This document shows, one piece after another, positions 15,779-36,906 of a DNA stretch of 64,000 nucleotides. The notes beneath the pieces were generated by a model that did no database searches, was not told where the DNA came from, and was given only the letters and a program-made list of their open reading frames with translations. The first letter of the stretch is position 1. Each line of letters starts with the position of its first letter. The stretch spans positions 1,643,501-1,707,500 of the forward strand of contig JAJTWR010000021.1 of the NCBI GenBank assembly GCA_021613335.1, read 5' to 3'. Source of the stretch: Whitmania pigra. Its lineage: Eukaryota > Annelida > Clitellata > Hirudinida > Haemopidae. The translations under genes and the position numbers were made by a program.

Positions 15779-17158
15779 ATGAATCTTGAAAGGTTTAACA
15801 AACCTGAAAGAACTTTATATATTAGTAACCTCCCCTACGATGCAACTGAGAAAGAGTTGGAAAGCATAATTGGAAATATCGTACCAATCGAGGAAGTTTA
15901 TATTTTTTATAAATCTTATGGAACCAGTACAGGAACTGGAGAAATACTTGTACGCAACCGAAATGATGCCGCGATTCTGTGTGACAGAATTAAGAACACG
16001 CTGTTTAAGGGGAGGATTATTAGAGTGCAGGCAGGACTCAACGGGAAAAATATGTATCAATTTAGCACATATCTGGTAGATAATTTGCCTCTCGATGTTA
16101 CATCAAGAGAACTTAAAAAACATTTCCGTCATCCCTTCACAGTCAAAAAAGCAAGTGTTTTTTATAATGAAGATGGAAGTAGCACAGGAAGAGGGATAGT
16201 AAAATTTCTTGGACATTTTCGTGAAATTGATGATATTTATTATTACGACCAGTGCAAAATTAAGGGCAAGAAAATGGAATTCAGAGACTTATATATATTT
16301 TCATATACAGGCGTCATACCTTTGATGGAAAATAACCAATATCTGCAACTCTACATTGTCAACCTGCATTACGATGTCAAAGCGGAAGACTTGGAAGCAT
16401 ATTTTGGGAGATGGTTTGAGGTCGCAGAGGCCATCATATATTATGAAGAAGATGGAACCAGTACTGGGACTGGTGCAATTACTTTTTATGAATTCGAATC
16501 TATTCCTAAAATTTTCAGATTTGTTGTGAAAGCCTTTGAGGATCGTTATTGGTCGGTAATGTGCCCTTGTGATCCTGAAAATTACTATTCATTCAAAGAT
16601 GTAGAAAGCAGTTTTAATATTATTGAAGATGAAATTGAAGAATATGCAGATTTCCATGAAAAGGTTCAAAACCCTTTTCAAAGCACTCAAGCGAGAAAAC
16701 AACTGAAGAAGTACAGTGATTCTGATGTTAAGGAACGTCTTAGCATTGTGGACGAAATCATATTATTGAAGCAATTCAACAAAGGGGGATCAAAGGAAAG
16801 ACTCTTGAAATTAAGGTATTACAACAGTTTTGCCAATCAACATTTCAGACAGAGAAGTTACTTCGTTGCTCTGAGATTGGGAATTCCTGAATGTGAATTT
16901 CATTGTGCCATTTACGTCACAAACTTGCACTACGATGTCACGGAAGAAGAGTTGAGGGCTTTTTTCTCTGCAGAAGTGCCTGTCAAGAGAACCTTCTTAA
17001 TTGCCAATAGGGTCGGTACAAGTTCTGGAACCGGAATGGTGGTATTCAAGAGTAGGAGAGACAGGCTCTTGTGTTTGCTTCTGTTTGAAAATAAGAAATT
17101 GAGAAATAGAATATTAGATATGAAATGTGTCCCTGGTCTGACAAAGAAATGCTGGTGA
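15779..17158 (+). CDS. Single-exon protein with four ALYREF-like RRM domains, copy A
   Basis: The frame is open for 459 codons with no sign of introns. Four RRM-like units each begin with an RNP2-type strand (LYISNLPYD, YLVDNLPLD, LYIVNLHYD, IYVTNLHYD) and carry a Gly-rich loop (YGTSTGTGEI, DGSSTGRGI, DGTSTGTGAI, VGTSSGTGM) where ALYREF-type RRMs have SGRSLGTADV. Approximate units are residues 8-80, 95-175, 188-270 and 375-455. A Glu- and Lys-rich helical linker of about 100 residues separates units 3 and 4. Aly/REF proteins link splicing to mRNA export but have one such domain, so this is not a plain orthologue. The partner gene at 35521 starts at an ATG that is ATA here, so translation would start at 15779. 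Strong conservation of the frame suggests selection. RNA binding is inferred. Confidence 0.8.
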   Translation: MNLERFNKPERTLYISNLPYDATEKELESIIGNIVPIEEVYIFYKSYGTSTGTGEILVRNRNDAAILCDRIKNTLFKGRIIRVQAGLNGKNMYQFSTYLVDNLPLDVTSRELKKHFRHPFTVKKASVFYNEDGSSTGRGIVKFLGHFREIDDIYYYDQCKIKGKKMEFRDLYIFSYTGVIPLMENNQYLQLYIVNLHYDVKAEDLEAYFGRWFEVAEAIIYYEEDGTSTGTGAITFYEFESIPKIFRFVVKAFEDRYWSVMCPCDPENYYSFKDVESSFNIIEDEIEEYADFHEKVQNPFQSTQARKQLKKYSDSDVKERLSIVDEIILLKQFNKGGSKERLLKLRYYNSFANQHFRQRSYFVALRLGIPECEFHCAIYVTNLHYDVTEEELRAFFSAEVPVKRTFLIANRVGTSSGTGMVVFKSRRDRLLCLLLFENKKLRNRILDMKCVPGLTKKCW

Positions 17159-17270
17159 TATTTTATCATACTAAATATTGCTTGTAAATCTTAGTGGTCT
17201 AATATATGCGATGGTTATGTTTAAATATTAAAAAAGTTAATAAATGTGACATTCATTAACGTCAGACTTT

Positions 17271-17760
17271 TTAATCAATGTTTTCATTATCGAATTCTTT
17301 TCCTTTATTGAACAGAACAAGAAATGAACAACATAAATGAAAAGCGAAGGATGTGGAAATAATTCCGTTGTTCTTTAAAATCTTGCTAATAAGGTTTTGA
17401 ATATGTGGTTTGAAAGTAAAGTGTTGGTCGATGATGATTCCAAGAAATTTACAATTGACAACGCGATATAGCAAGGAGTGTGGTTGTCGAGTGTTAATCT
17501 TATTTTTTTGGTTTATGAAATAACATGTAAACAGTTTTCTTAACATTAAGATTTGAAATATTAGATGCGCACCAATTTGTTGTTTTTGTGAGCTCGCTGT
17601 TCACCATTGAATAAAGTTTATCATTGTTATATCCTGACAAAAAACGTTTGTGTCATCAACAATGAATTCAAGGTTATCCGATGAATTGCTCATGTCATTG
17701 ATGTAAACAAAAAATAATAGTGGACCCGTCACAGAATCTTGCATTGTGACGAAATCATAT
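17271..17760 (-). mobile_element. LINE reverse-transcriptase fragment inside duplicated segment A
   Basis: On the minus strand, GPLLFFVYINDMSNSSD and DDTNVF match the RT region around the catalytic Asp pair of non-LTR retrotransposons. Further on, CKFLGIIIDQHFTFKPHI matches the post-RT block. The frame is interrupted. A shorter copy lies at 37016-37390 at the same distance from the partner gene, so the insertion came before the duplication. Confidence 0.7.
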
Positions 17761-18930
17761 TATATACTCCTAAAGTTACAGGTGCAATTGAAGAAAGTGA
17801 GTTTTTGAAATGGACCGTCTGGATTCGATGACTTAGATAACTATTTATATCACAATAGGCATTTATCTCGGATGCCATAATGTTGCAGTTTCTCAAGCAG
17901 AATGATGTTGCAAGTACTGCTCATGTTATTATAACATATTATAAGAAATTACTATTATAGCTGAATGTATACTGATAATTTGATTCCTATATATATATTA
18001 ACATTATTCAATGGCTGGTCGAACATCCACCTTTCTCGAAAAGAAGATTCCGTCGCGATGTTGATGCTGGGACTTCAACGATTGAATGAAGTCTGCCATC
18101 GATATCAAAAAGTTTACTTTTATTCATGGTGGTGTTTTCATCATCTTGTATTCTTTTGTAGAATTATCTGTTTTTCCGTGTCATCCACGAAGATATCGCT
18201 GGGAATCAAGGAGAAGCATTTGTTGCCATGGGTGAAGGCAACTATCTGATGGGTGTTATTAATAGCATTATAATAAAAGCAAATTGGGTGAACTGAATAG
18301 ATATAGATAGATTAGATATTGTATATGGTAATAAATTTCGAATCAAGTCAAAATTCAAAATTCTCAACGAGCGGGTTTGTCAATGAATTTCGGATATCTG
18401 CGAATTCGGTTTAAGAAAGTTAACGAGATGCCAATCATTGAAGGTATCCTCACAATTCCGCAAAATACTAAACGATTGAATTTGCTGAAGATCCGACTAG
18501 TGACCACACTGCTTATGATGGTCATTAGTAGGCTATTTTAAAAAAGAATATGTATTGAAATAACCCGGGGGTCCGCAAATAAGTAAGTTAACTAATAAGT
18601 TTATTAGAGCAGGTATTCAGTTAACGGAACTGAATAATAGAAGTTAAGTGTTGAAGAAGTTGAGGTACTTAAGGATGCAAATGGTTATTTGGGCTTCTAA
18701 GTTGTCTTGATTCTCGTTGTTTGTCAGATGATTATCGAGAATGCTTTTCTGTAGCAAAAATATATCCCACGGGGCGCAAGCCTAATAGGAAAGACCCTGC
18801 AAATTTTGTGAAAAACTTCTAGTCATGTCAAAATTTAAAAATTTAGTAGAGACACCTCGCGACATATCGGTAAACCTTTAATTAAATATATATTTACTTT
18901 TAATCATTATAGGCGGAGCTAATTTTGTTT

Positions 18931-19058
18931 ATGGGGTGGAGCTATGTCTCTTATTTTTCATCTCATTAAGGCTGTGTGCAGCTCGGACGGTTTTACCGAA
19001 AAGTAAAGCTAAACTAACTTTAATTCATATTTAACTCTCATTTCCAGAGATTTTCAGC
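18931..19058 (+). repeat. Dispersed repeat (GGGGTGGAGCTAT... block)
   Basis: The part GGGTGGAGCTAT followed by TTTTTCATCTCATTA and GCAGCTCGGACGGTT recurs at 38594-38652. The part CTAACTTTAATTCATATTTA, running to CCAGAGATTTTCA, recurs at 42583-42640. The element type is unknown. The stretch 18556-18930 before it holds no recognised feature. Confidence 0.6.
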
Positions 19059-19059
19059 A

Positions 19060-19312
19060 CCATTCTCTCATCCATCAAAAATCAGACACAGACTGGACCA
19101 TTCATTTATATTTATTATTTAAATTGTCCTTTAAATTGTACTTAGTTCGTGTTATTCTCGATTAATTGTTTGTTTGACAGGTTTATTATTGTTCTTTCAT
19201 TTAATTGATATTTCTGGGTCAGCTTGCCAACGGAAGCTTGCGCTTCCTTAAAGCTGATCAATGAGTTCTTTATAAATCTGCATGTTTTTTTGTTTGTTTC
19301 ATTTTGATGATG
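19060..19312 (+). repeat. SINE/LINE-type 3' tail, copy without head
   Basis: It matches 21800-22060, where it follows a tRNA-derived SINE. Shared landmarks are ACAGACTGGAC, TTGTACTTAGTTCGTG and the hairpin-like GGAAGCTTGCG-TTTCCTTAAAGCTGATC. This copy lacks the tRNA-like head and may be a truncated copy of the same element or of its LINE partner. Confidence 0.6.
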
Positions 19313-19394
19313 TAAATTATGAACTGTTTTATGGGAATTAACAACAAATGTACAAATAAAAATGGTCCTGACACGTTTACTTCGTTACTATTTT

Positions 19395-19912
19395 TATCAA
19401 GAGTTTGTCATCAGGGCAGTAGGCCTTTTATATAACATCATGCGCAGAACAGACACTGGCCTGAGTTGAAAGGTCGTGTAGTCCAAGTAGGTCATCCCTT
19501 CGGAAAAGGGGGCATTCAAATTCGTGCTGTCGTTGCATTCGTTTTTAAGCCACCAGCCAGACCTGGAATGGAGTGTGCAGTTCACTCCTTCCTTTTCCAC
19601 CTCCATTCTAGAAAGGTTGTCCTTGACCTTGAAGTCCTTTCCGTTCAGACCCAAGTACGTCAGGATTTCTCCGATGTCGCCGACGTACCTGCTGGCGTAG
19701 AGGCAAAAGTTGCTCGCTTATCGGAGCATGGGAGCCACTGCCTCGGAGCTTATCCTGAATGGTCCATATTCGCCAGATATCCATCTGAAGAGCAGAAAAA
19801 CTTCCAACGGACGTCCACGTCGTCTGGTCTCACAAAGCTGGGAAAAGATGCGCTAGACTTTCTATTGACTGATGGTATAGAAGTTCCATCGTCATTTTCG
19901 TCCCTGACATGA
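19395..19912 (-). pseudogene. Fibrinogen-related (FReD) C-terminal domain relic
   Basis: FReD proteins are secreted lectin-like recognition factors. On the minus strand a frame ending at 19397-19399 reads YVGDIGEILTYLGLNGKDF, CTLHSRSGWWLKNEC, then STNLNAPF and LRPVSVLRMML. This is the order of the FReD C-terminus (GYSGD, the Ca-site region, the Cys before GWW, NLNG and the final strand). EYGPFRISSEA lies just upstream in the same frame, but a TGA follows it, and earlier sequence is spread over other frames. Only the last third of a normal domain of about 220 residues is present. Confidence 0.65.
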
Positions 19913-20047
19913 AAATCCATACCACACTATCCGAACATTTCTCCTCCTCCATCACTATCATCATCATCACCTAGAGTCCCCATCACCGCCGAAAAAGGAG
20001 CCGAGGATGAACTTTTTCCATCGGAATGTCTCGGAGTTTAGGGCAAA

Positions 20048-20165
20048 GCGAGTTGGCTCAGAGGTAACAGTCGTGTTCGTAATCCCGTTCGCACCGCCAG
20101 GGAGCGCCCTCGGGTAGGGGCTCCATGTAAATGGTGGTTCGATCAAGAAGTGCATTCACATCCTA
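20048..20165 (+). mobile_element. Diverged relative of the tRNA-derived SINE
   Basis: It contains an A-box-like TTGGCTCAGAGG, CAGTCGTGTTCGTAATCCCG (B-box region), then GCACCGCCAGGGAGCGCCC and TAAATGGT in the order seen in the SINE at 21612. The 3' part of the consensus is missing or heavily changed. 20166-20460 has nothing I can name. Confidence 0.5.
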
Positions 20166-20465
20166 CTTGCATACGTAAGGCACTCAAAAAATCGGCTAAA
20201 TACACAATGGCTTCCAACATGAAAAAAGAAACTATTTGTTTTTTTTGCTTATCAGTGGGGGGGGAGGGGAATAAGGTTGGTGCCTGTGGGACTTCTACCT
20301 GGGTAAATCTGGAGCTGATCAATGTTGGATAGAGTTGATTCTGCTTGGATACTAGAATAGAGCACATGCATTCTTTTTCAGTGGATTCATGTTAATTTAA
20401 TGTAAAGCTTATTTCATATTGGCGGTTGTCTTTTCATTTAATTGGTTTTAATTAACTTTTGTCAG

Positions 20466-20601
20466 GTTAATCCTCATATATCACAACCTCATACATTAAA
20501 TCAATTGAGATCACAGCAAGGTGTAATGCAACAACTTTTGGTCCAGATTTCTAATTTATAGCTACCCCAGCAAATTCTCCAGAATCAGATTTTGAAATCA
20601 G
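20466..20601 (+). other. Gln-rich exon-like block with an internal stop
   Basis: A stretch bounded by an acceptor (TTTTGTCAG) and a donor (CAG|GTAAAT) reads a Gln-rich sequence (LNQLRSQQGVMQQLL, then LPQQILQNQ), with one TAG where a Gln codon would need a single base change. No gene context was found; low confidence. Confidence 0.25.
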
Positions 20602-21611
20602 GTAAATTTAGGATTAAATTTGAATTAGTTGGTCTTAAAATTGGTAATATTTGTGAAAACACTGTTTTTGTTTATGTTTGAAAAAAATATAGATACTACA
20701 TTAAAAGTATTTAACATGGTTCGTACAGGTCCTAAAAATTACAATAAAGTCCTAAATAATAATGTTCTGAGATTTTATTAGCAACATTTTTGTCGAAATA
20801 GCAATTGGCCGGTAAATCGGTCCTTTTGTTCTATCGGTTCCTTTGTTCTGGCTGCTCGGGAACGGACCCAATTAAATTTCCTGTTACGTTCGTTCGCTTG
20901 TCCGTTTGATCCTTTAAGTTTTGATAGCACTATCAATTATGCCTGGACTTCGTGTTTTCAATAGCAAATGGCTAGACAATGAAGAATGGAGTTGGTTGAG
21001 AAGGAATACTACAAATTCCCAAAAGGCATATTGTTGCCCTTGCAAAAAGAACTTTGACATTTCGAAATTGGGAGTTACAACACACGCTCGAGAAAAAAAA
21101 CATTGCGACTATGTTACAAAGGCTCTCAACCGATGAACAGTTTCGTTACCACGTTTGCAAGCAGATCAGTTGATCAGTGATGAAATTGTACCTAAAGCAA
21201 GTTGTGATTCTGTTGAGGCTTTCCCATCATTTGCTGGGAATCGTTATGATGATGAAGATTGTCTACAGATGGTATCAGTTTTGCTAACTTTGAGTCATGG
21301 TCAGGCATTTGTTGAAAGAGGTCAGACTCCATAAATAAAAGTCTGATTTGTTAGAATCAAAAAGAGAAGAACTTGAATGCAAGGAGGATAATTAGAGACC
21401 ATGTTAACAGTGTTGGAGGTATAGGCAATTTAAGGATAAATAAATCTGTCCTGAGCCATTTTAAAGCATCAAGACAAAGATATAAAGCCTGAAAGTGTCA
21501 ACTACACTAAACCTTCACACTCCCTCCGTCATACCCATGAATATAGTCTATCTTTTGCCAAAACCACCCTCAAGCTCTTTTCAATAACATGTTACGGACC
21601 TAGACTATATA

Positions 21612-21797
21612 ATGCGCGTGCAGGTTAGCCAAATGGGTTACGTGCCTGCATACGGCGGTAATGACAACAGTCGTAATGTGTCGTGTTCGAAACCCAGCCT
21701 GCACTGCCGCCAGCGCCCTTGGGAAGGAGCGCTATATAAATGGTTACGAGAAGCGCCTCTGACGCTATGCATATGGCGCTATATAAATGAAGTTACA
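21612..21797 (+). mobile_element. tRNA-derived SINE, best copy
   Basis: The pol III A box (GGTTAGCCAAATGGG) and B box (GTGTTCGAAACCC) lie about 60 bp apart, followed by a body with two copies of GCGCTATATAAATG. Relatives are at 8612 (+), 20048 (+) and 43874 (-). A tail shared with 19060-19312 follows and ends in an A-run at 22087-22096, typical of a retroposed unit. Confidence 0.85.
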
Positions 21798-21799
21798 TA

Positions 21800-22096
21800 C
21801 CATTCCTTCATCTATCAAAAATCATACACAGACTGGACATTCATGCTATTATATTTATTATTTAAACTGTCCTACAAATTGTACTTAGTTCGTGGTATTT
21901 TTGATTAACTGTTTATTTGACGGGTTTATTATTCACTTTCTTAATTAATTGATATTTCAGGGTCAGCTTGCTAGCGGAAGCTTGCGTTTCCTTAAAGCTG
22001 ATCCATGAGTTCTTTATTAATCCGTATATTGGTGTCTTTATTGTTTGATTTGTTTTGTTCATTTTGATGATTAATAAAATTGCTCCAAAAAAAAAA
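21800..22096 (+). repeat. Tail block shared with 19060-19312, ending in poly(A)
   Basis: It directly follows the SINE head and body and ends AATAAAATTGCTCC plus about ten A. The GGAAGCTTGCGTTTCC segment can form a small hairpin. Its presence without a head at 19060 suggests a 3' end shared with a LINE or 5' truncation. Confidence 0.6.
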
Positions 22097-22198
22097 TATA
22101 AATTTTATTTGGATACCTTGCATGAGGAAGAAGCTGAAGACTCTAAAACATGATAGTGATATGTTGGACAGAGAATTTCGAATATTAATAAACGTATG

Positions 22199-22390
22199 TG
22201 TTGTATCGCTTGTATAAATGAAAACAACAGCGAAACTAAAAGTCTTTATTTACAACAAAACACGTCTTCTTGTTTTTAACTAATTCGTATCAATTGTATG
22301 TAGCAACTCCAGAACTCAAACGAACCGCTCTCTAGCTTCGCAATTAGGCACTAGCCTTTCGGCACATACAGGTGAGCTAGCTACGTAACA
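22199..22390 (-). repeat. 3' LTR of the gypsy element
   Basis: Direct repeat of 26181-26372 with TG...CA ends. The polypurine tract (AAGGGGGAGG on the minus strand) abuts it at 22391-22400, which marks it as the 3' LTR. Confidence 0.95.
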
Positions 22391-23303
22391 CCTCCCCCTT
22401 CAGTAAAAGTCGTCGGTTCAACTGCTGACGAATTCTTTCTGATCTTCGTGGCATAGTCGGAGAAGGGAACCGTACTTCGGGTCTGGGTTCTTTAATCGTT
22501 CTTTGCCCTCTTCTTGGCGTAGGTTCTTGTAATTGTCTTGGTCGCTCAGACGTTGGTTTCACTATCAGGGATGGATGTACAACCACTGGATCTCCAGGAT
22601 CAGCATCCTGTTCAACACCGTATCTGTGGCGAATTTGATCAATGTGCCTCTTCCACAAATATCCCTGCCTTAAAGATTTGACTACAAACAATCTTGGACC
22701 CAGAATCTGTTGAATTATAGCCGGTACCCATCTTGGTTGTCGATCTCTATGAGGTCCAAAGTATTTTGCGTAGCAAGGCGATCCTACCGCGAATCGCTCT
22801 TTGTTTTTGCTTTGTGTAAGAGCTACCTCTTTTGTTAGGAGCGACGGAGATGGGCGAAGGACATCCGGAACCACCCACGGATGATTCAAGGCTTTTGGCG
22901 GATTATTGTGTTGTTCTTGACAGCTGGAACAACCTCTGCAAAGAATTTCAATTTCGCGATCCATCCGAGGCCAATAAACGGCTGTTCTAGCCAGATATTT
23001 CATCTTTTGCATTCCGAAATGTCCCAGGTGTAATAACTGTAAAACCTCATTCCTCAACCTCTTGGGAATAACTAATCTGTTACCCATACACAGGCATTTA
23101 CCCTCAAAGGACAAAGAATCTTTAAGTCTTTTGAAAAACGTAACTTCGTCCTCATTGATCTTCTGTGGCCAACCCTTTTCCATGTACCTGAGAACCGTTG
23201 TAATTACGGAGTCTTTTGCTGTTTCCTCCGAAATTGCTTTAGAGTCAGTCGAAGTAATTTGTTGACTCAAAGCATGAATCGTGCAGACATTGGAAAATTC
23301 CAA
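22377..23303 (-). pseudogene. Gypsy integrase lacking its catalytic core
   Basis: The HHCC zinc-binding domain is visible (HLGHFGMQKMKYLA through CRGCSSCQ). The next residues, ALNHPW, should lead into the D,D-35-E core, but the sequence jumps to the post-core part (RPSPSLLTKEV, YAKYFG, then a Pro/Arg-rich tail). All three catalytic acidic residues are therefore missing. The deletion keeps the frame. The tail has no chromodomain that I can see. Confidence 0.85.
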
Positions 23304-24899
23304 TTACTTCTCTGCATCATCAAATATTTTATCTTCACCCGAAGGTAACCGACTTATCGCATCTGCGTTCCCGTGTTCAGACGTTTTCCTGTATTCAATT
23401 GTATAATTGTACTGTTGAAGTATAAGGGCCCAGCGTGTCAGCCGATTCAAAGTAAGTTTTGGCACTGCTTTATTTGGATCAAATAAAACCAAGAGTGGCT
23501 TGTGATCAGTCACTAAGATGAATTTCCTGCCGTAGAGATATGGATGGAATTTTTGTACTGCGTATATTATTGAGAGAGCTTCCTTATGAATTTGACTGTA
23601 TTTGCTTTGGCTTTCGGACAAAAGCTTTGAAACGTTGAATATGGGTCTTTCAGATCCATCTGGATAACGGTGAAATAATACTGCTCCCAAACCTACTTCG
23701 GATGCATCACATGCAATTCCAACTTGTAACTTTGGATCAAAGTGGGCCAGTTGAACTCGTTTCAGCAGTAATTCTTTCAATCTCTTGAACAATTTTTCTT
23801 GATTCGGTCCCCAAAACCATTTGATATTCTTGCGAGTCAAAGAATACAGGGGTTCAGCAACCGTAGACAAATCTGGTATGAATTTGTGGTAAAATTGTAT
23901 CGAAAACAAAAACGATTTCAGTTCCGAAATATTTACTGGTCTGGACATGGAAGCTACGGCATCAACTTTTCCTCCAGGACCAACACCTTCTCTTGACAAC
24001 GTATGGCCAAGATAATCTAAAGATTCTTGTGCAAAACAACATTTCTCTTTGTTACATTTTAAGCCACTGTCTTGTAGTTTCTGTAGTGTATTCTTTAGAT
24101 TTTGTAGATGTTCCTGTTCGGTCGCGCCTCCTATTAGTATGTCATCCAGATATACCACCACTCCAGGTAGGTCACTGGTCAAATTATCCATGATTTCCTG
24201 GAAATACCCAGGCGCTGAACTTATGCCGAACGGAAGTCTTGTTTGTAGGAATACACCTCTAGGTGTTCTAAGGGCAAGACGTCGTTGACTCTCGGGACCC
24301 AGTTTTATTTGATTGTAGGCGTCCGCTAAATCAATTTTTGTAAAAAATTTACTTCCGGATAATTTCCTAATAAGGTCCTCGGGTAATGGCATTTGGTGTC
24401 GGTGAGTTTCTAGCTGTGAATTTACAGTGACAGCGTAATCCCCACACACACGCAATTTGACCTTTGAACCCGATCCTTTCTTCCGAATTGGTACAATTGG
24501 AGTTCCCCAATCATTGAATTTGGTTGGTATCCAAATTCCTTTCTGAATTCCAGCTTCTAAAGCTTGATTCAAATCCTTCATGATAGCGAATGGCACCGTC
24601 CTTGGTTTCTTAAACACCGGCACGGCCTCCTCCTTGAATTTGATTTCCAGTTCACAATCTTTAAGCAAACCTAATCCTGGCTGAAATAATTCCTCGAATT
24701 TCTGGCAGAGATCGCGACACTTCTTTTGGACGTCGTTTGCATTCAAGTTTGAATGTATCTCTTCATTCTGTACAAGACATATTCTCTGAGATTCCTGAAG
24801 CTTTTTACTCAAGTCTACCTGCAACTGTAACATTGCGACTCTTCCCAACAAATTCAGTTGTTTTGGAGTCACGTTGAATGTTATGTATGTTATGTTTTC
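23304..24899 (-). CDS. Gypsy reverse transcriptase and RNase H segment
   Basis: It continues the gag-protease frame after TAG. RT landmarks are FTKIDLADAYNQIKL, LPFGISSAPGYFQ and the catalytic YLDD. RNase H follows with ACDASEVGLGAVL, the Glu in KEALSIIYAV and TDHKPL. The frame ends at TAA 23304-23306, shortly before the integrase zinc domain, and the same frame resumes immediately. No start codon is required if it was one polyprotein. Confidence 0.9.
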   Translation of the reverse strand, partial: ENITYITFNVTPKQLNLLGRVAMLQLQVDLSKKLQESQRICLVQNEEIHSNLNANDVQKKCRDLCQKFEELFQPGLGLLKDCELEIKFKEEAVPVFKKPRTVPFAIMKDLNQALEAGIQKGIWIPTKFNDWGTPIVPIRKKGSGSKVKLRVCGDYAVTVNSQLETHRHQMPLPEDLIRKLSGSKFFTKIDLADAYNQIKLGPESQRRLALRTPRGVFLQTRLPFGISSAPGYFQEIMDNLTSDLPGVVVYLDDILIGGATEQEHLQNLKNTLQKLQDSGLKCNKEKCCFAQESLDYLGHTLSREGVGPGGKVDAVASMSRPVNISELKSFLFSIQFYHKFIPDLSTVAEPLYSLTRKNIKWFWGPNQEKLFKRLKELLLKRVQLAHFDPKLQVGIACDASEVGLGAVLFHRYPDGSERPIFNVSKLLSESQSKYSQIHKEALSIIYAVQKFHPYLYGRKFILVTDHKPLLVLFDPNKAVPKLTLNRLTRWALILQQYNYTIEYRKTSEHGNADAISRLPSGEDKIFDDAEK

Positions 24900-26099
24900 C
24901 TACTCTGGCATGGATGCGTCAATCTTGAACAAACCGTAAATTGGTAGGACATCACCTGTAACCGACCTGTATTCAGTTGAATTTCTTTGGAGTTTTGGGC
25001 AGCCTAATTCGGTCCATATTGTCTTCGAAATAAAACTGTCGCGTGTACCGCTGTCCAACTCGAATTCATAAAGTTTCTTGCCAAGTTGTATCTTTTGTAA
25101 AAGCGGATCATTATCATGCATTCTTTTGATTATTTGCACGACGTTTCGTGGTTTCTTCTGGAAACACACTCTTTCGTAATGGCCTTTCCTTCCACAAAAA
25201 TTACAAACAACACCAGTCTTCTTACATTTGTCGGCCCAATGTTCCGCACTACCACACCTGTAACAATTGTAACGCTTTGTAGGGTGTGCATGGTCTCGCT
25301 TGAATGTTTTGCTGGTATCGTATCTTTTGCTTGAAATGACTTTTCTTTGAAATGGAGTCTGTTCTCCTCTTTTGGCGTGAGCTATCTGTTTCGGTTTCAA
25401 CTGAATAGCCTGAATTGACTCCGAAGTCGAATGGTATACTGTGTCTTTGGCCACGGTGGCCACTCCTTCAATCTCATTTGCCACTTCCACTGCTTTAGCA
25501 AAAGACAGTTCCTCTTCTGGGATTCTAAACAATGCTTTCAGAACTGCTTCATTTTGAATGCTGCATATAAAATTTGTTCGGAGCGCCTCGTCCAATGGAT
25601 TTGTAATGCTCGAGAAATCGCACGTGACCGCTCCTTGACGAATCCGAGTTGCGAGCTCTTGTACCGACTCACCTGGTTTTCTTTTCCCATTAGTCCAAAA
25701 TTTGTATCTTTCTCGTATTACAAAAGTAGCCGGATTGAATAACTTTTCCATGTTCAAGACTATTTGTTCGTAATTCATGTCATTTGTATTTCTGGGCGGT
25801 TGCAATTGCGTAGCCAAAGTTTCAAGCATTTTATATATTTCTGGACTTTGGTTTGTAAGAAAAACCTGGGCTGCTTTGCCTTTAGCGATTGAATTTGCCA
25901 ACAGAAATGTATCAAACCTTTTGATGTAATCCTTGAATAATTCTTTCTCTGGTTGAAAAGGCTCGAACTTTTGTATAGAAGACGTCGTATTTCCTTGTTG
26001 ATAAGTTTGTAGCATTTGTATCATTCTTCTTTCACTTTCTGCTGTTTGTTTCGCCAACATTTCAGCAAACAACTGAACAATTTCTTTCAATTCCGACAT
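24900..26099 (-). CDS. Gypsy gag and protease segment
   Basis: The ATG-started frame of 399 codons begins with a helical capsid-like region. Two zinc knuckles follow (CYRCGSAEHWADKC and CNFCGRKGHYERVC, about residues 275-310). Then comes the start of a retropepsin with the catalytic triad written DSG (ELDSGTRDSF, about residue 350). It stops at TAG in the middle of the usual protease-to-RT region. The same frame continues with the expected family sequence beyond the TAG, so the stop is either a mutation or a readthrough site; a mutation is more likely at this location. Confidence 0.9.
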   Translation of the reverse strand: MSELKEIVQLFAEMLAKQTAESERRMIQMLQTYQQGNTTSSIQKFEPFQPEKELFKDYIKRFDTFLLANSIAKGKAAQVFLTNQSPEIYKMLETLATQLQPPRNTNDMNYEQIVLNMEKLFNPATFVIRERYKFWTNGKRKPGESVQELATRIRQGAVTCDFSSITNPLDEALRTNFICSIQNEAVLKALFRIPEEELSFAKAVEVANEIEGVATVAKDTVYHSTSESIQAIQLKPKQIAHAKRGEQTPFQRKVISSKRYDTSKTFKRDHAHPTKRYNCYRCGSAEHWADKCKKTGVVCNFCGRKGHYERVCFQKKPRNVVQIIKRMHDNDPLLQKIQLGKKLYEFELDSGTRDSFISKTIWTELGCPKLQRNSTEYRSVTGDVLPIYGLFKIDASMPE

Positions 26100-26372: not shown

Positions 26373-26612
26373 GTATGTGTAAGAACCAGGAACATGAATC
26401 TTTTGGTCCAGGCAAAAAGCCCGAGGAAAGATAGCAAGGCAAAATCGACAGAAATTCCAACTTTAGAGAATGACTTGGAAAATTGATTTTTATTTAAATA
26501 AATCGATATTATGAACTTTCACGTGTTAATGTCTTGTGTTATATGTCTAAATTATACAAAAATTAATAATTAAAGTCCTAAATTTTGGTTTTCAAGTTCC
26601 TGTATGAACCAT

Positions 26613-27636: not shown

Positions 27637-28684
27637 CAGGGTTTCTTTCAGGCATACTTTCGGGGGGCTAAGCCCCCCCGGAGCTCAGCCATCGCCCCCC
27701 CGGAGCTCAGCCATCGCCCCCCCGAAAAAAATTTTTTTTCTCTTTTCTCAGCAATGCTTTACAAAAAAAAGATTTAAGTTTGACTAAAGTCATCCCATTG
27801 ATTACTTCAACAAAATTGCACTTGAATGATATTGTGAAGCAGTGCGAAGATACCGAGAGTCATTTACAAAAAAAGATTAAATGCAAAGTTGATGAGATCA
27901 AATTAGAAACACACCTGGTTGAAGATGAAAGTGCTGAAAGCGTATTACTAGGAATGAAGAGGTATTGTGAAACTGTCATCAAAGAGATTGAAGACAGATT
28001 TAATGACAAATCGATTGAGATTATGTTATTTGCAAGTCAATTTGAGACTTTTGAATCAATGTCAGGTATTCAAGAAGAAGACATCATAACTTTTTGTAAC
28101 AACTTTCCCATTCTAAATGCAGAAGCTGTACTCGCGGATTTAAAATCTTTTAAATTTTTTATAAAATCTATGGTTGAGTGCAAAAAGTACAAAATGGATG
28201 AAAACCCATTGAACAAAATACTGGAAGCTGATTTGGGATACTGTGAACTACAAAGGCTTTGTGAAATTCTTCTTGTAATTACAGTAACAACTGCTTCAGT
28301 AGAAAGATCATTTAGTACAATGAACAGGATTCTAAGCAAAGCAAGAAATAGAATGCTACCAGAAACTTTAACTCATTGTATGACCATAAGCATTGAAGGT
28401 CCCGAAGTTCCAACGGAAGATTTTCTCGATAGAGTAGTAGATTTATATGCTCTCAAAAAACCTCGGCGTATAAAATTTCTTTAAACATTTCAGTTAATAA
28501 ACATATTTTAAATTTTAGTTTGTATAAATGATTTTCAATATGTTTTTACCTAAAATATAATTATTGAACTGAGGTTATGCGTGATTTGATTTTAAACTTG
28601 TATTTGGCACGAAAAACTGCCCCCCCCCCCCCCCCCGAACTCATAAAATGCCCCCCCGAACAATAATGCCTGAAAGAAACCCTG
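27637..28684 (+). mobile_element. hAT element of 1048 bp with 8-bp target duplication CTCTCAGC
   Basis: Both ends read CAGGGTTTCTTTCAGGCAT as inverted repeats. CTCTCAGC is duplicated at 27629-27636 and 28685-28692. Subterminal C-rich tracts flank the coding part. Only a C-terminal transposase segment is encoded. The insertion lies at the start of LINE-1 ORF2. Confidence 0.95.
27780..28484 (+). CDS. C-terminal hAT transposase protein (ZMYM1-like hAT group)
   Basis: The frame is open for 234 codons; the first ATG is at 27954, giving about 177 codons. The end carries the hATC dimerisation signature (TTASVERSFSTMNRILSKAR, then RMLPETLTHC). The preceding region is the helical part before hATC. 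The N-terminal zinc-finger region and the first catalytic residues are missing. It could at most make a dimerisation-competent fragment; function is unproven. Confidence 0.75.
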   Translation: MTKVIPLITSTKLHLNDIVKQCEDTESHLQKKIKCKVDEIKLETHLVEDESAESVLLGMKRYCETVIKEIEDRFNDKSIEIMLFASQFETFESMSGIQEEDIITFCNNFPILNAEAVLADLKSFKFFIKSMVECKKYKMDENPLNKILEADLGYCELQRLCEILLVITVTTASVERSFSTMNRILSKARNRMLPETLTHCMTISIEGPEVPTEDFLDRVVDLYALKKPRRIKFL

Positions 28685-30125
28685 CTCTCAGCCCTTTCGG
28701 AAATAAACTAAAATCATGGGCTTCCACAAATATCAGAAGCCTAATCAGCCCAAGAGAAGAACTATCTTTGTTTCTGAAAAGCCACAACCTAGAAGTTTTT
28801 GGTTTGGTTGAAACTTGGTTGGACAGTGAACCCGACGGCTTATTTCTGTTAAAAGAGTATCAGGCTTTTCGTTGGGACAGTGGCTCTCGCGGAGGAGGTG
28901 TAGCCCTACTCATCAAGAAAAATCTCAAAGTTCGACAAATACCCATACCATTGGAGTACAAGTCTATTGAAATAGTCTGTGTTGATATTCTTACGTCTTG
29001 TTCAACTTGCCGAGTTATTGTCTATTACAGACCAACTGGTTTCAATTCAAATTCTGTTGAGTACGCCAATAGAAGCGTCCGCTGTTTGGACTATCTGTGC
29101 AGTGATACTGGACTGGTTTGCGTCATGGGAGATTTCAACCTTCCGTATGTCAACTGGCAAAACTACTCCCACCCTAACAATGAAATCTATAAAATATTTA
29201 TCAACTTATTTGACTAGATGGGATTTCACCAATTTGTCCAGTCACCAACGCGACAATCAAACATCCTAGACCTGCTCTTCTCCAACGATTCGAGTTTCAT
29301 ATCAGACATCAGGATAATGCCACCAATCTCTCAGAGCGACCATAACACCATCGTCTTTACAACGAATCTTCCAACCACACCAGTCACAATTCATAACCTA
29401 AGCTACAGACACTTAACCAAATCAGCCTATGAAAATCTAGACATCTACCTTTGCCAAACAAATTGAAACGAGTTGTTCCAATACTGCTTCTCTGTTGATG
29501 ACTGTTGGAGAGTGTTTACAGATATTGTTTACAAAAATTGATCGAATATTATTCACTCCTGATCGCACATACCAGACACTCCGTAAACTCAAACCGTCCC
29601 TCTCATCTGGTCCGGATGGAATCACTAACACCCTCCTCAGAAACTGTGCTGCTGGTCTCTGTTTGCCACTCTGCCATATCTTCAACTTCTTCTTCAATAT
29701 GCATGAACTACCCCTTGATTGGAGATCTGCCCACGTAACCCCCGTGCACAAAAAAGGAGCCACTTCTGATCCCGGTAACTACCGACCAATATCACTCACA
29801 TCCTCCTGCTGTCGAGCAATGGAACGGATGATCAATAAAGACATCTTAAACTACCTTCAAGCTAACAACCTTATATCACCTGAACAACATGGCTTTTTAA
29901 ACTCCAGATCGACATGCTCCAACCTGATTGAATGTACAAATGATTGGTCAGTATCAAGGCACCAGGGCACAGACATAATATACTTTGACTTTAGAAAAGC
30001 CTGTGACTCGGTCTCTCACCAAAAACTGCTGTCTAAACTTCAGGCATATGGCATCTCAGGCAATCTACTTTCATGGTAGATGAAATTATTTACTTAATTA
30101 TCGCTCTAGTGAAAGTTTCGCTAAA

Positions 30126-31019
30126 ATGACTACGAGAAGTTTTAAAGATTTTAAAAAATGCCAAGAATGCGAAATGTATGGAAGTGTCGAGGGTTTGAAT
30201 CTAAACCAAATTTGCAAGAACTGTGTGCGAATGAAAGACGTCGTCGAAAGACTCGAACAACTCATAGGTATCAATAAGGAACAAAGTCACAAAATCGAGT
30301 TGCTCGAAAAAAAGTTGGAGACTATAGAAAGCGGCAAAGTAGGAGGAGATCTTGTGGAAAATAAAGTTTCAAAGCTGGAGGAGAAAGTAGAGAGCTTACT
30401 TGTCTCAGTCGAGGCTGACATGACAGCCGAAGCTGGTACTAAAAGCAAGGGTCTTGCATGGACAGAAATTGTAAAGAAAAGAGTAGATGCAAAATTGAAA
30501 ACAATTGAAGACAGAGTACAAGTTGTGGACAAAAAAATCAGTACAGCAAAAACCATTGCTCAGGAGGAAGTCGAAAGAGAAAAGAGAAGGAACAACATTA
30601 TACTGTACAGGCTCGAAGAAAGCAAAGCTAAAAGTGAGCCAGAACAGAAAACTGAGGATAGAGACACTGCTATGCATTTCATCAACAATGTACTTGGTGT
30701 AAAATGTGATAGTGGTGACATCAAAAGTGTATTCAGGATAGGTAAGGATACAAAGGAGGTAAGGCCACTAATGATTCAATTTAGGGAAAGAGAATCAAAG
30801 AACCTAGTTTTGGAATCACTTCCAAAATTACGAACTGCAGAAAGCAAATTCAAAGGCATCTCTGTCTGCCATGATTTGACTAAAGCAGAAAGAGAGCAAT
30901 GCAAGAAATTGTTGGAAGAGGCGAAGAAAAAGCAAGCTGAAGATCAGTCGGGGGACTACATTTTCAGAGTGAAGGGCCAACCAGGCAATATGAAGCTGGA
31001 AAAGCTGAGGAGGAGGTAA
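30126..31019 (+). CDS. LINE-2 ORF1 protein
   Basis: Intact 297-codon frame from ATG. Residues 10-40 hold a CxxC pair set (CQECEMYG, NQICKNCVRM) that suggests a small zinc site. A long coiled coil follows (about 40-165, with EQLIGINKEQSHKIELLEKK). An RRM-like domain comes next (RRNNIILYRLEESKA, VFRIGK, RPLMIQF), then a basic end. This is the usual nucleic-acid-binding, trimer-forming ORF1p layout. Its end overlaps the opening of the ORF2 frame, which lies at -1. Confidence 0.85.
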   Translation: MTTRSFKDFKKCQECEMYGSVEGLNLNQICKNCVRMKDVVERLEQLIGINKEQSHKIELLEKKLETIESGKVGGDLVENKVSKLEEKVESLLVSVEADMTAEAGTKSKGLAWTEIVKKRVDAKLKTIEDRVQVVDKKISTAKTIAQEEVEREKRRNNIILYRLEESKAKSEPEQKTEDRDTAMHFINNVLGVKCDSGDIKSVFRIGKDTKEVRPLMIQFRERESKNLVLESLPKLRTAESKFKGISVCHDLTKAEREQCKKLLEEAKKKQAEDQSGDYIFRVKGQPGNMKLEKLRRR

Positions 31020-33853
31020 GATTAGAAATTAATCATTTAAGTAAGGATATAGACAGAGTAAGAGTTCTGAAATGTGTTTATGCCAATGCTAGAAGTATAG
31101 TTAGTAAGACTAAAAGGACAGAACTCGAGCTAATTGTCGATACGGAGGAGCCAGATATAATTGGCATTACTGAGTCTTGGGCAAAAGAAAGTATTCAAAA
31201 CTCTGAGCTAGCAATTGATGGCTATGAGATGTTAAGGAAAGACAGAGAGGGACAGAAAGAAAATGGACATGGAGCAGGAGGGGTATTAATTTATATTAAG
31301 AATCATATCAAAGTAATAGAAAGAAAGGAATTTCAAAATGAAAAATTTAAAGAGAGTTTATGGTGTGATATTTACATAGGTAAATTCAAACTTCTTTTAG
31401 GGGTTTGCTACAGGCCACCAAATTTTAAAGAGGATACTGGACTAAATGAGATATTATACAAAGCCAGTAAGGAATTTATGCTAGTAATGGGTGATTTTAA
31501 CTACCATATTAACTGGAACACTTTAGAAGGAGAAAGACCTGAGGATATAAACTTTATAAATGTAACAAATGATAACTTCTTATTCCAGCACATCACTGAT
31601 CCCACAAGAGGTAAAAACACATTAGATTTGATATTAACAACAGATGAGAACTTAGTGGAAGGCCTAACAGTTGGTGAACACTTTGGAACAAGTGATCATC
31701 AAGTTGTCAGATGGAACATTTATTTAGACAACGAGGATTTAAAAAAAGAGAACCTAGATTCTAAAAACTTTTTTAAGGCTGACTATGAAAAAATACGGAA
31801 TGAGTTAGAGAAAACAAACCTAGCTAAAAAAAATAGAATCTGCTAATGTAGAAGAAGCTTGGGCAATAATCAAGAAAGAGCTAAATCTAGTTGTAGATAA
31901 ATATATCCCAAGCAGAGGCAGAACTCAGAAAAGACAGCCATGGCTTACGAAGGAGGTCATCAAATGCAAAAGAGCTAAGTATAAAGCATGGAAGAAATTA
32001 CGAGAAATGACAAAAATAAAATCTGGAGATGAAGAGGAAAGAGAGCTTAAGGATTTAAAACAAAAATATCAGAAACAAAGGAATGCATCAAACAGAATTA
32101 ATAAAAAAGCATTACTAGAATATGAGAACAAATTAGCAAAGAATGTTAAAAGCGATAGCAAGAGCTTTTTCAGATACGTTAGATGTAAACAAAAAGTAAG
32201 GGACAAAATTGGACCATTACAAAATAGTGAGGGGCAAACAGTTGATTCAGTAGAGGAAACAGCCAATATATTAAATAGCTACTTCAGTTCAGTTTTTACT
32301 AAAGAAACAATAGGGAATATACCAGAACTGCCAAGGAGAATCCAACAGATTGAGATAAAGTTAGATACAGTAAACTTCTCAAAAACAGGGGTAATTAAGC
32401 AACTGGAAAATTTGAAAGTAGACAAGAGCCCTGGAATAGACAACCTACATCCTAAACTACTATATGAGACAAGAACAGCTATAGGAGAAGCATTGGCAAT
32501 CTTATTTGTCAAATCGTTTGATTCAGGAACAATACCAAGAGATTGGAAAGATGCAATAGTAGTTCCTCTATTCAAAAAGGGAAGTAGGGGTTTGCCATCC
32601 AACTACAGGCCAGTAAGCTTAACTTCTATAGTTTGCAAGGTAATGGAAAGAATGATCAAAGAGGCTGTATCAACTTTTTTTGGAAGAAACGATGTGATTG
32701 GAAAGAGCCAACATGGTTTTACTAAGAACAGATCGTGTCTTACCAACCTACTTGAGTTTTTTGAAGAAATTTATGAGTGGGTTGATCATGACAAGGCTGT
32801 AGATGTAGTGTACCTAGACTTCGCAAAAGCATTTGACAAAGGCTTCAAAAAAAGCTCGGTGCATGTGGGATTGAAGGCAAACTATTACATTGGTTTACAA
32901 ACTGGTTGATAGATAGGAGACAGAAGGTAGGCATAGGAGGAATTTATTCAGAGTGGCAACCAGTACTTAGCGGCGTCCCACAAGGATCAGTGCTTGGACC
33001 TGTACTGTTCTGCATATATATAAATGATCTGGATGATGGCATAAGATCTAAGTTATCCAAGTTTGCTGACGACACCAAAGTAGCAAGAAGTGTCAGCAAG
33101 CAAGAAGATGTAGATACACTTCAGGAAGATCTTAACAAGTTATTCAAATGGGCAGAAGATTGGCAGATGCTTTTCAACGTAAGCAAATGCTCCATTATGC
33201 ATATGGGATGCAAAAACACGAAAGTCGAATATGCATTTGGAGGAAGCATTCTGAAGCAGTCAAATCAGGAAAGAGATCTGGGGGTAATAATGCAGAACAA
33301 TGGAAAAGCATCTCTACAGTGCATGGAAGTTGCTAAAAAAGCAAACAGAGTACTTGGAATGATAAAGAGAACAGTAGTAAGCAGGAACAAGGATGTAATA
33401 CTGAGATTGTATAAGGCATTAGTAAGGCCACACCTTGAGTACTGTGTGCAAGTATGGAACCCTCATTTGAGGAAGGATGTAGAGATGTTGGAAAGAGTGC
33501 AAAGAAGGGCAACCAGGATGATAGATGGTTTTGGAAAGCTTAGTTACGAGGAAAGATTAAATAGATGTAAATTAACGACTCTGGAAAAGAGAAGAAATAG
33601 AGGGGACCTCATCGAGGCATTCAAAATTTTATCGGGAAGGGAAGGCCTTTTGCCTGAACAGTTTTTCGAAGCCACAAAAAGTGTTTCTACTAGAGGGCAC
33701 GATTGTAAATTATACAGGAAGGCTTCGGGAAACTTGAAAAACAATTATTTCAGTTCAAGGGTGGTTTCCTTATGGAATAAACTAGATAAGGAAACCATCC
33801 ATGCTGACACAATAGATAAATTCAAAATTTACTTAAGTAAATTCGGATATTAG
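31020..33853 (+). pseudogene. LINE-2 ORF2: AP-endonuclease and reverse transcriptase, two frame lesions
   Basis: Endonuclease landmarks are YANARSIVSK, ITESW, YRPP, MGDFNYHINW and SDHQVV. RT landmarks are DKSPGIDNL, NYRPVSLTS, QHGFTKNRS, YLDFAKAFD, SGVPQGSVLGP and FADDTK. The C-terminus has RVQRRATRMI and YLSKFGY before TAG/TAA. Lesion 1 is an extra A in the A8 run at about 31825. Lesion 2, at about 32840, follows AFDK, where a short stretch is missing and the frame changes. Apart from these it is open over about 930 codons. Confidence 0.85.
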
Positions 33854-35520
33854 GACTAAAAAGAGTGGTTATTACACAGATCCAGGTCTTCTTAACCACT
33901 ATAAATAATTGTTATGTTATGTTATGTTATGGCTTGAGACTTTCTTGTCCAACCGAACCCAGGCAGTCAAAATTAACGGCCACCTTTCCAATGAAGTGGA
34001 CGTGGTTAGTGGCGTGCCTCAAGGGAGTGTGCTCGGACCTACACTTTTCCTCATATATATTAACCGATTACCGATGTTACCGATAACCACGTCAAATCAA
34101 AACTTTTTGCTGACGACATCAAACTGTACTCAACATCATCACTCCCTTAAAGTTCCTCCCTACAGTCTGCTGTTGAAAGGTTGGTGTCATGGAGCAACAA
34201 GTGGCAACTACAGCTTGCTCCTGAGAAATGCATTCAAATATCCATCAGGGCAGCTCGTACCAAAACTCCACCAAGACATTACACAATTGCTTCCCAAACA
34301 GTACCTCTATTAGAAACTACACGAGATCTTGGAGTCCTCATCGACGACAAACTTACATACAAGGCAAACATCAGCAATATTGTACACAAAGCATTTGTGA
34401 GGTTACGCTTGATTTCCAAATTCTTTCGCACCAGGAACAAAAACATTTTAACCAAGGCATACTGCTCCTACGTCCGGCCAATCCTCGAGTATTGCTCCCC
34501 AATATGGAACCTACACACTAAACAACTTACAATGAAAATAGAAAGGGTGCAAAAATACTTCACAAGATTGACTCCTGGTCTCAGAGCACTGCCCTATCAC
34601 AATAGACTAAAACAACTCGGACTCAAAACCCTCGAACATCGTCGCCTCATCTGTGACTTATGCTTATGTTACAAAATAATCCACGGCCATGCTATATGCA
34701 AAATTCCCGAGTTCCCTACGTTTCTAGCCTCCAGAACTCGTGGTCATCCCCTTCGTCTACGCCAAGAGAAGTGTCTCACCAGTCACAGACAGAACTTTTT
34801 CACCAACCGGGTCATCAAGCCCTGGAACTCCCTACCTCTTGATGTAATAAACTCCTCAACATTATCTCGATTCAAATCTTGCATCTCGTCTACTGACCTT
34901 AACAAATACTTATCGATTTAAAGAACTTGCTTCTGCACTTTATTTGCGCACAATATGTTGAACTTACCCAAATTTGTGTAAGTAGTCATTGAATGACCCT
35001 TCAATTTGTTGTGTAATAAATAAATAAATAATTATCCATAATATTTTTTTATAATATTAGCATGATGTTATAACTTTAATACATTAATTTTTATAGTATT
35101 TATTAATGTAATAACATTTTTTCATTAAAATATTACTGCTGTTATCTTTATTTATGTCTACAAATACATAAATTTTATTTTTGTACAATAATAACTAATT
35201 AATTAATTATAAACAGTTTCCATATAATTATATTTTGACCACGGGCGAAAATTTCTTAGCTACGCCTCCCCATGACCGATGCTTTCTCCGACAGGCTCAA
35301 TAAAAATCAAGTCTAAACCGCTGGCAATTATTTGCTACATTTTAAATGAAAATTTAATACCAAAACAAAGTTTTTGAATTTATAGTAATAAAATATAAAA
35401 AATTAATTATCAATTATTTAATAAATAAATATTCTGAATCTTTTTCAAGCAAGTGAAACTTCTGTGATTTGTATCCATACAATATCGAATTATTATTTCT
35501 AGTAATTTAAATTCACAAAT

Positions 35521-36906
35521 ATGAATAACCTTCTAATGTTGAACTTTGAACTGGGTAGCAAACCTTCTAGAACTTTATATATTAATAACCTCCACTACGA
35601 TACAACTGAGAAAGAGTTGGAAAACACATTTGGAAATATCGTACCAATCGAGGAAGTTTATATTTTTTATAAATCTTATGGAACCAGTACAGGAACTGGA
35701 GAAATACTTGTACGCAACCGAAATGATGCCGCGATTCTATGTGACAGAATTAAGAACACATCGTTTAAGGGGAGGATTATTAGAGTGCAGGCAGGACTCA
35801 ACGAGAAAAATATGTATCAATTTAGCACATATCTGGTAGATAATTTGCCTCTCGACGTTACGTCAAAAGAACTTAAAAAACATTTTCGTCATCCCTTCAC
35901 AGTCAAAAAAGCAAGTGTGTTTTATAATGAGGATGGAAGTAGCACAGGAAGAGGGATAATAGAATTTCGTGGATATTTTCATGAAATTTATGATATTTAT
36001 GAATACGATCAGTGCAAAATTAAGGGCAAGAAAATGGAATTCAGAGAATTATGTATACCTGCATATCAAAGCGGCGAACGTTTTATGAAAAATAACCAAT
36101 ATCTGCAACTTTACATCGTCAACCTGCATTACGATGTCAAAGCGGAAGACTTGGAAGCATATTTTGGAAGATGGTTCGAGGTCGCAGAGGCTATCATATA
36201 TTACGAAGAAGATGGAACCAGTACTGGGACTGGTGCAATTACGTTCTACAAATTCGAATCTATTCCTAAAATTTTCAGATTTGTTATGAAAGCCTTTGAG
36301 GATCGTTATTGGTCGGTAATGTGCCCTTGTGATCCTGAAAATTACTATTCATTCAAGGATGTAGAAAGCAGTTTTAATATTATTGAAGATGAAGTTGAAG
36401 AATATGCAGATTTACATGAGAAGGTTCAAAGCACTCAAGCGGGAAAACAACTGAAGAAGTACAGTGATTCTGAAGTTAAGGAACGTCTTAGCATTGTGGA
36501 CGAAATCATATTATTGAAGCAATTCAACAAAGGGGGATCAAAGGAAAGACTCTTGAAATTAAAGCATTACAACAGTTTTGCCAATCAACATTTCAGACAG
36601 AGAAGTTACTTCGTTGCTCTGAGATTGGGAATTCCTGAATGTGAATTTCATTGTGCCATTTATGTCACAAACTTGAACTACGATGTCACGGAAGAAGAGT
36701 TGAGGGCTTTTTTCTCTGCAGAAGTGCCTGTCAAGAGAACTTTCGTAATTGCCAATAGAGTCGGTACAAGTTCTGGAACTGGAATGGTGGTATTCAAGAG
36801 TAGGAGAGACAGGCTCTTGTGTTTGCTTCTGCTTGAAAATAAGAAATTGAGGGGTAGAATATTAGATATGAAATGTGTCCCTGGGCTGGCAACAAAATGC
36901 TGGTGA
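35521..36906 (+). CDS. Single-exon protein with four ALYREF-like RRM domains, copy B
   Basis: Intact 461-codon frame from ATG. About nine in ten residues match copy A, with the same four RNP2-like strands (LYINNLHYD, YLVDNLPLD, LYIVNLHYD, IYVTNLNYD) and Gly/Thr loops. Differences cluster in the N-terminus (LLMLNFELGSKP), in the second half of RRM 2 and in the segment joining RRM 2 to 3. Copy B lacks four residues present in the linker of copy A (after EKVQ). Upstream sequence is shared with copy A, so both may use the same promoter region. No introns and no membrane segments are seen. RNA binding or mRNA-export function is inferred only from the domain type. Confidence 0.82.
   Translation: MNNLLMLNFELGSKPSRTLYINNLHYDTTEKELENTFGNIVPIEEVYIFYKSYGTSTGTGEILVRNRNDAAILCDRIKNTSFKGRIIRVQAGLNEKNMYQFSTYLVDNLPLDVTSKELKKHFRHPFTVKKASVFYNEDGSSTGRGIIEFRGYFHEIYDIYEYDQCKIKGKKMEFRELCIPAYQSGERFMKNNQYLQLYIVNLHYDVKAEDLEAYFGRWFEVAEAIIYYEEDGTSTGTGAITFYKFESIPKIFRFVMKAFEDRYWSVMCPCDPENYYSFKDVESSFNIIEDEVEEYADLHEKVQSTQAGKQLKKYSDSEVKERLSIVDEIILLKQFNKGGSKERLLKLKHYNSFANQHFRQRSYFVALRLGIPECEFHCAIYVTNLNYDVTEEELRAFFSAEVPVKRTFVIANRVGTSSGTGMVVFKSRRDRLLCLLLLENKKLRGRILDMKCVPGLATKCW

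Follow-up and report, generated by a model that had tools for sequence, protein, structure and literature searches.

ALYREF (THOC4; the Aly/REF and Yra1 proteins), an adaptor of TREX export, is encoded by one gene in human and by two in mouse and yeast (available parts of PMC5095910). Its RNA recognition motif (RRM) is described as binding RNA weakly via loops, with arginine-rich flanks binding most, and its N- and C-terminal UAP56-binding motifs (UBMs) as binding UAP56 (available parts of PMC5095910 and PMC12823420). A probable relative of a different build is encoded in a leech, Whitmania pigra. The window, meaning the whole stretch of 64,000 nucleotides that was analysed (assembly GCA_021613335.1, contig JAJTWR010000021.1, positions 1,643,501 to 1,707,500 of the forward strand), holds two uninterrupted reading frames, copies A and B, whose products each have four RRM units in a row. 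With somewhat more belief than doubt, we regard them as members of a leech multigene family of ALYREF-type RRM chains that may act as multivalent messenger ribonucleoprotein (mRNP) adaptors. RRMs and ALYREF are known; as far as has been searched, what is new is a multigene family whose chains consist of four ALYREF-type RRMs. Within the open-licence literature no paper on ALYREF expansion or on a leech RRM family was found, and the available main text of leech genome papers contains zero mentions of 'RRM' or 'RNA-binding'.

15779..17158, + strand: copy A open reading frame (ORF), 459 aa, uninterrupted
copy A residues ~10-86, 95-169, 187-265, 374-453: RRM units 1 to 4
35521..36906, + strand: copy B ORF, 461 aa, uninterrupted
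copy B residues ~16-92, 101-176, 193-271, 376-455: RRM units 1 to 4

An initial annotation, made from the letters of the window, had proposed two fully open frames of about 460 codons with four RRMs each, and that is what is found. Pfam RRM_1 matches each of the two window proteins (labelled P0001 and P0002) four times, above the curated cut-off for RRM superfamily membership and with whole-protein E values of 8.6e-34 and 6.7e-35, and an AlphaFold2 model from a six-sequence alignment has four RRM folds. Its predicted local distance difference test (pLDDT) values in the RRMs, taken in ten-residue blocks, are mostly 65-91 with a few blocks at 40-57, and its predicted template modelling score (pTM) is 0.42, so that the individual domains of the model are credible and their relative arrangement is not. 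A helical insert had also been proposed between units 3 and 4. Residues 273-362 are partly helical in the model, with pLDDT below 50; for that reason the insert is not established, and the stretch is treated as a low-confidence linker. Foldseek, given the model, returned generic multi-RRM proteins at query-length TM-scores of at most 0.24 (best 50 of 1,696). The start ATG of copy B reads ATA in copy A (15761), where the first ATG consequently lies six codons further on.

Ancestry of the RRM units

That the units are ALYREF-type RRMs by ancestry is supported chiefly by a domain tree (69 domains, 80 columns) of 37 units from 11 proteins, eight ALYREF-type domains and 24 other RRMs, the last an unbalanced sample, 17 taken from the top RRM_1 matches in the genome and seven from PDB outputs. 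One or two members were taken per array, and a prior filter (at least 68 residues, E at most 1e-5) removed the second units of some proteins. A single branch (99/88) sets the 24 other RRMs apart. All 37 units form one clade (93/96), and between it and the other RRMs lie the genome's single-RRM ALYREF-like proteins and human ALYREF. By position, the units fall into groups with support of 90/66 (unit 1), 99/97 (unit 2), 99/91 (unit 3) and 95/77 (unit 4), values that for units 4 and 1 fall to 81/76 and 85/60 when the units of a five-unit relative, P0005, are added. The results also support a single origin of the chain. Aromatic residues at positions 3 and 5 of the RNP1 motif are lacking in 37 of 37 units and in eight of eight ALYREF-type domains; one at either position is kept in 23 of the 24 other RRMs, NONO RRM2 being the exception.

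Searches within the genome are also pertinent. With one single-RRM ALYREF-like protein as query there were 135 matches, no exhaustive ranking because the best candidates alone were scored; 101 are in multi-RRM loci, all eight window units being included, 22 in single-RRM clusters and 12 elsewhere (four of these on contig C20, of the P0005 type), although RRM_1 itself has 595 first-look candidates in the genome, of which 150 were scored. A profile of seven single-RRM ALYREF-like domains gives human ALY 77 bits, the units of copy B 35-56 and the top unrelated RRM 34. By position it gives first units 44-69 bits, fourth 38-50, third 28-46 and second 9-44, the second and some third units therefore overlapping other RRMs. 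In the approximately unbiased (AU) test, whose groups were chosen after the PDB matches were known, grouping of the units with PABP (p 0.042) or nucleolin (p 0.0445) is weakly rejected, and the test does not reject a grouping of the human with the leech ALYREF-type domains (p 0.443).

Several results weigh against this ancestry. With human ALY alone as query the eight window units score 17-23 bits, under SR-like RRMs at 25-27. Profiles of single units against PDB give ALY 43.1 bits for unit 1 (U1-70K 46.6, SFPQ 46.5), 31.0 for unit 2 (NONO 45.9) and 33.7 for unit 3, below hnRNP M at 37.1 and others, and for unit 4 neither ALY nor THOC4 is among 48 sequences. A grouping of the units with NONO RRM2 is not rejected by the AU test (p 0.171). 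The likeness to ALYREF that had been read from the units' letters is supported by the 99/88 branch, the own-genome profile and the genome search with a single-RRM protein, the human ALY query and the PDB profiles being unspecific.

The FoP domain marks ALYREF and CHTOP. P0001 and P0002 have no Pfam match to it, and a pattern scan of both found neither Arg-Gly-Gly (RGG) nor a C-UBM-like pattern; since this C-terminal domain and RGG are missing, the window proteins are, by sequence, ALYREF-derived and not Aly/REF proteins proper. Elsewhere in the genome, and chiefly on C220, are intronless ALYREF-like genes with a single RRM, in about 17 copies, most with an uninterrupted coding frame.

C220, C192, C330, C227 and C177:3057030: intronless single-RRM ALYREF-like genes

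One of their proteins, compared with PDB, has ALY and THOC4 as best single-domain chains (E 7.8e-13). FoP_duplication is above the Pfam cut-off in one of seven of these proteins, and two of the seven have a C-UBM-like motif. Genome-wide, FoP_duplication occurs at 11 places; C220 and C177 account for seven, and the multi-RRM loci for none. At C169 and C211 RRM and FoP exons adjoin, and these are read as ordinary intron-containing ALYREF genes.

Family members in this and other genomes

In keeping with a leech source, a PUF60 protein of the genome has, among the best 120 of 813 matches, one at 83% identity, followed by Helobdella robusta (a leech) at 66% and 414 bits and by the rest from 373 bits down, and a hirudin-family exon reaches 28.8 bits (cut-off 25), over just 19 of 64 positions. 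The genome that was searched (178 Mb, 381 contigs, the window being part of C11) yields 102 matches to copy B in six frames. Grouping of those in multi-RRM loci gives 34 places, one of which is a duplicate contig end, leaving 33, a count from which further fragments, several with stops, were left out. C99:12173 and C146:9108 are identical, and the 5,377 identical bases there (C99:9625-15000, C146:7000-12376), probably an assembly overlap, were counted once. The duplicated gene pair previously noted is thus real as a duplication, in blocks specified below, but belongs to 33 multi-RRM places rather than being a matter of two genes. Ten open frames, the window pair included, have all four units.

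C99:963932, C99:12173, C19:309368, C310:2002644, C146:159388: open four-unit members
C274:1868232, C274:2183974, C183:1990010 (diverged), window copies A and B: open four-unit members, continued
C99:927500, C99:1113189 and four in C274: six near relatives, split, with a stop or running into N
C327:1105463-1118391 and C183:1990010-1991407: members with long arginine/serine (RS) repeat inserts

A frame of 2,097 aa at C99:927500 was rejected, being a run of N. Arrays are present on C43 (seven places) and C327 (five); the open frames read there contain three units each, and some frames are split. On C80 and C370 a frame of 802 aa matches six units, one of 431 aa three and one of 493 aa four. In the C183 and C327 members the RS-rich insert is in or after unit 3. 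In a family copy at C274:197000-206000 the linker runs into poly-Asp and then into a poly-Met/Thr frame, as if a simple repeat had shifted the frame. Clustered single-frame copies are likewise a feature of other RRM genes, SR-like and PUF60-like, on C80 (L012/L013) and C320 (L014/L015).

Against 5.8 billion proteins, copy B found two full-length relatives, 56% and 35% identical. A four-sequence profile, in a search that scored only the 7,995 candidates with the most shared words, gave seven matches, of which five are family members (P0003-P0007) with no assigned names; the other two are weak and are ordinary RRM proteins, one being named REF1, an Aly/REF name (E 5.1e-5). P0007 is identical at 366 of 368 positions to this genome's own C146:107245. 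P0003, P0004 and P0006 have the same architecture and come from another genome. In the tree P0003 goes with the window subfamily (first units 99/96) and P0006 with C43 (99/98), and of P0004 the first unit alone groups with C183 and C327. P0005, with five units at a constant spacing of 130 residues, is 78-85% identical to the C80 and C370 proteins, and C20 carries frames of 177-183 aa that code for relatives of P0005 with a single unit (68-76% identity). Because P0003, P0006 and P0005 each pair with a different subfamily here, we infer that at least three subfamilies would be older than the split from the other species, provided that P0003, P0005 and P0006 share one source. The suggestion that such chains are lineage-specific is supported as far as two word-limited protein database searches reach.

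Coding constraint and rival explanations

Copies A and B lie with their flanks in two duplicated blocks, downstream of which there are small further common pieces. Around the ORFs are features that, if the genes are expressed, could serve in transcription and 3' end formation.

15399..17648, + strand: duplicated block with copy A and flanks, 90.7% identical to 35164-37405
35164..37405, + strand: duplicated block with copy B and flanks, 90.7% identical to 15399-17648
15596..15778, + strand: upstream stretch in common with other full-length paralogues, from the start of blastn homology; putative promoter/5' untranslated region
17227..17244, + strand: ATTAAA/AATAAA poly(A)-signal-like hexamers after copy A, starting at 17227 and 17239
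36975..36995, + strand: ATTAAA/AATAAA poly(A)-signal-like hexamers after copy B, starting at 36975 and 36990

Between the copies, the method of Nei and Gojobori (NG86) gives dS 0.113, dN 0.053 and dN/dS 0.47 (bootstrap 0.30-0.78), so that the comparison of synonymous with non-synonymous differences that had been proposed as a check comes out not near one. The flanks diverge by 6.5-7.0% and contain 12 insertion or deletion events in about 870 bp, versus one, 12 bp long and in frame, in about 1,380 bp of coding sequence. The probability of zero stops after 84 random substitutions, all taken as equally likely, is 0.008. Given the one versus 12 indels and this probability, both copies are by these counts more than chance open frames, and their coding sequence appears preserved since the duplication. 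Over nine subfamily members pN/pS is 0.26 for unit 4, 0.35 for unit 3, 0.63 for unit 1 and 0.74 for unit 2; it is 0.59 for the part of the linker that bears the motif discussed below, 0.80 for the acidic linker, 1.02 for the N-terminus and 1.23 for the stretch joining unit 2 to unit 3. With the lowest values in units 4 and 3, the working core would most likely be units 3-4.

Constraint of this kind speaks against young duplicates without lasting function, drifting to pseudogenes, an explanation that we consider improbable but that has several points in its favor. Two of eight 60-codon windows between A and B (N-terminus and unit 2) have dN/dS of 2.09 and 1.46, values resting on two and three synonymous changes, and in a third window such changes are absent; pairwise dN/dS in the subfamily is 0.45-0.70, but one recent pair on C274 is at 0.88, and six near relatives are split, have a stop or run into N, though frameshifts in other family copies may be assembly errors. 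Opposed to drift are the overall ratio, with its bootstrap interval below 1, the paucity of indels and lack of stops in the coding sequence, the low values of units 3 and 4 over nine copies, and full-length relatives in other genomes at 35-56% identity. A different origin was raised by the surroundings, which the initial annotation had described as dead transposons. Transposon pieces are indeed around the copies, but not all need be dead, one reverse-transcriptase frame of 1,067 aa being free of stops.

50203-53406, - strand: reverse-transcriptase frame, 1,067 aa, no stop; RVT_1 and zf-RVT
22377-26099 (- strand), 28648-34921 (+ strand), 46930-48257 (- strand), 27780-28484 (+ strand): reverse-transcriptase, RNase H and zinc-knuckle frames and a hAT dimerisation region

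ORF1 proteins of some long interspersed nuclear elements (LINEs) carry RRMs, and the copies, with their uninterrupted coding frames, sit among reverse-transcriptase fragments, of elements presumably Gypsy- or LINE-like, one of which ends 600 bp before copy B. Nevertheless, that the copies are a retrotransposon ORF1 is rejected as very improbable. Around 18 of 21 locus records (some of them overlapping, and two being the window copies) about 1.5 kb of flank has no match to the window's transposon proteins, the probes being the window's own elements only, and the domains are ALYREF-type by tree. Further, paralogue homology stops shortly before and after the ORF: for full-length paralogues blastn has it start at about 15518-15596 and end about 20-130 bp past the stop, that to some paralogues extending beyond the poly(A)-like hexamers. 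The third alternative retains the ALYREF descent and changes the role: the proteins would be ALYREF-derived decoys or dominant negatives, or would sort RNA in the germ line in a conflict with transposons, which would explain fast turnover. In keeping with it, copies are gained and lost, arrays exist, the N-terminus and the stretch joining unit 2 to unit 3 have pN/pS close to 1 or higher, and a C-terminal FoP domain is lacking; but a general adaptor would account equally well for the strong constraint seen in units 3-4, and we judge this alternative unlikely, though less so than drift.

Of other features of the window, a second duplicated stretch, 93.6% identical over 637 bp (1331-1964 and 41731-42364), is outside the RRM blocks. 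A 590-aa frame at 56717-58489 (+ strand) has zinc-finger-like C/H spacing by eye and no Pfam match at E 0.001, and Rfam at gathering thresholds has no match within the window.

A proposed adaptor model and known systems

In the adaptor reading that we favor, an ALYREF gene would have given rise, by retroposition, to intronless single-RRM copies; an ALYREF-type domain would then have been duplicated within one gene, once, to yield the four-unit chain; and the four-unit gene would have multiplied into subfamilies, the window pair being the most recent step. The proteins would be a multivalent nuclear mRNP adaptor, with a presumed role in export or packaging. Like the ALYREF RRM, the units are without the two RNP1 aromatics, so that weak binding to RNA or partner proteins would be expected of each alone, and a row of four could give avidity on mRNPs. 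A motif resembling a UAP56-binding one, in the linker, may tether the chain to the export helicase.

36496..36510, + strand: UBM-like motif VDEII, copy B linker, residues 326-330, in a low-confidence helix of the model
16748..16762, + strand: UBM-like motif VDEII, copy A linker, residues 324-328

The motif, as [LMV]D[DE]II, is at the same linker place before unit 4 in all nine subfamily members, which, as paralogues, count as one event. The strict N-UBM pattern [LM][DE][DE][IVL]I, fixed in advance, is in six of the nine and arises in 58 and 109 of 5,000 shuffles (two members). UAP56 binding by the linker is made more doubtful by the absence of the strict pattern from both window copies, from C183 and from all seven single-RRM ALYREF-like proteins, by the loose pattern arising in 312 and 423 of 5,000 shuffles, and by a PDB search with the linker that gave no ALYREF chain.

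More tentatively, and with doubt outweighing belief, leeches may have evolved a separate class of mRNP adaptor, with three to six or more ALYREF-type RRMs, a relocated UAP56-binding motif, an RS-rich insert in some, and several subfamilies (at least three in two species), as a supplement to ALYREF or its competitor when mRNA is packaged or sorted for export, a role that may lie in the germ line. The approximately 17 single-RRM copies and 33 multi-RRM places would amount to a natural experiment in which the ALYREF RRM was made multivalent and freed from the C-terminal UAP56-binding part, and the same gene set would inform the turnover of export adaptors.

In the comparison with well-described multi-RRM families, a check that had been proposed, PABPC also has four RRMs in a row and is the best overall PDB sequence match of the window proteins, but its RRMs keep the RNP1 aromatics that the window units lack, and with PABP-1234 the window proteins reach 45.9 and 64.0 bits (P0001-P0004, 44-68) versus a cut-off of 497.1. 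The best NCBIfam match, NF058537 Rbp_regulator, is at 61.4 and 69.2 bits, under its cut-off of 100. Nucleolin has four RRMs and, when its domains are summed, the top score of the unit 1 and unit 2 profiles in PDB; its grouping with the units is, like that of PABP, weakly rejected (above). For RRM2 of the NONO/SFPQ/PSPC1 (DBHS) proteins the likeness is RNP1 without aromatics (NONO), the difference that NONO RRM2 is placed in the tree with other RRMs, on a long branch. The genome's single-RRM ALYREF-like genes are the closest domain relatives of the units in the tree and differ in having one RRM. ALYREF/THOC4 itself has one central RRM where the window proteins have four, and these are without its FoP domain, C-UBM-like pattern and RGG, and their UBM-like motif precedes unit 4, in the linker, instead of being N-terminal; what they have in common with it is the type of RRM, by tree and family profile, RNP1 without aromatics and, more tentatively, a UBM-like motif in a flexible region.

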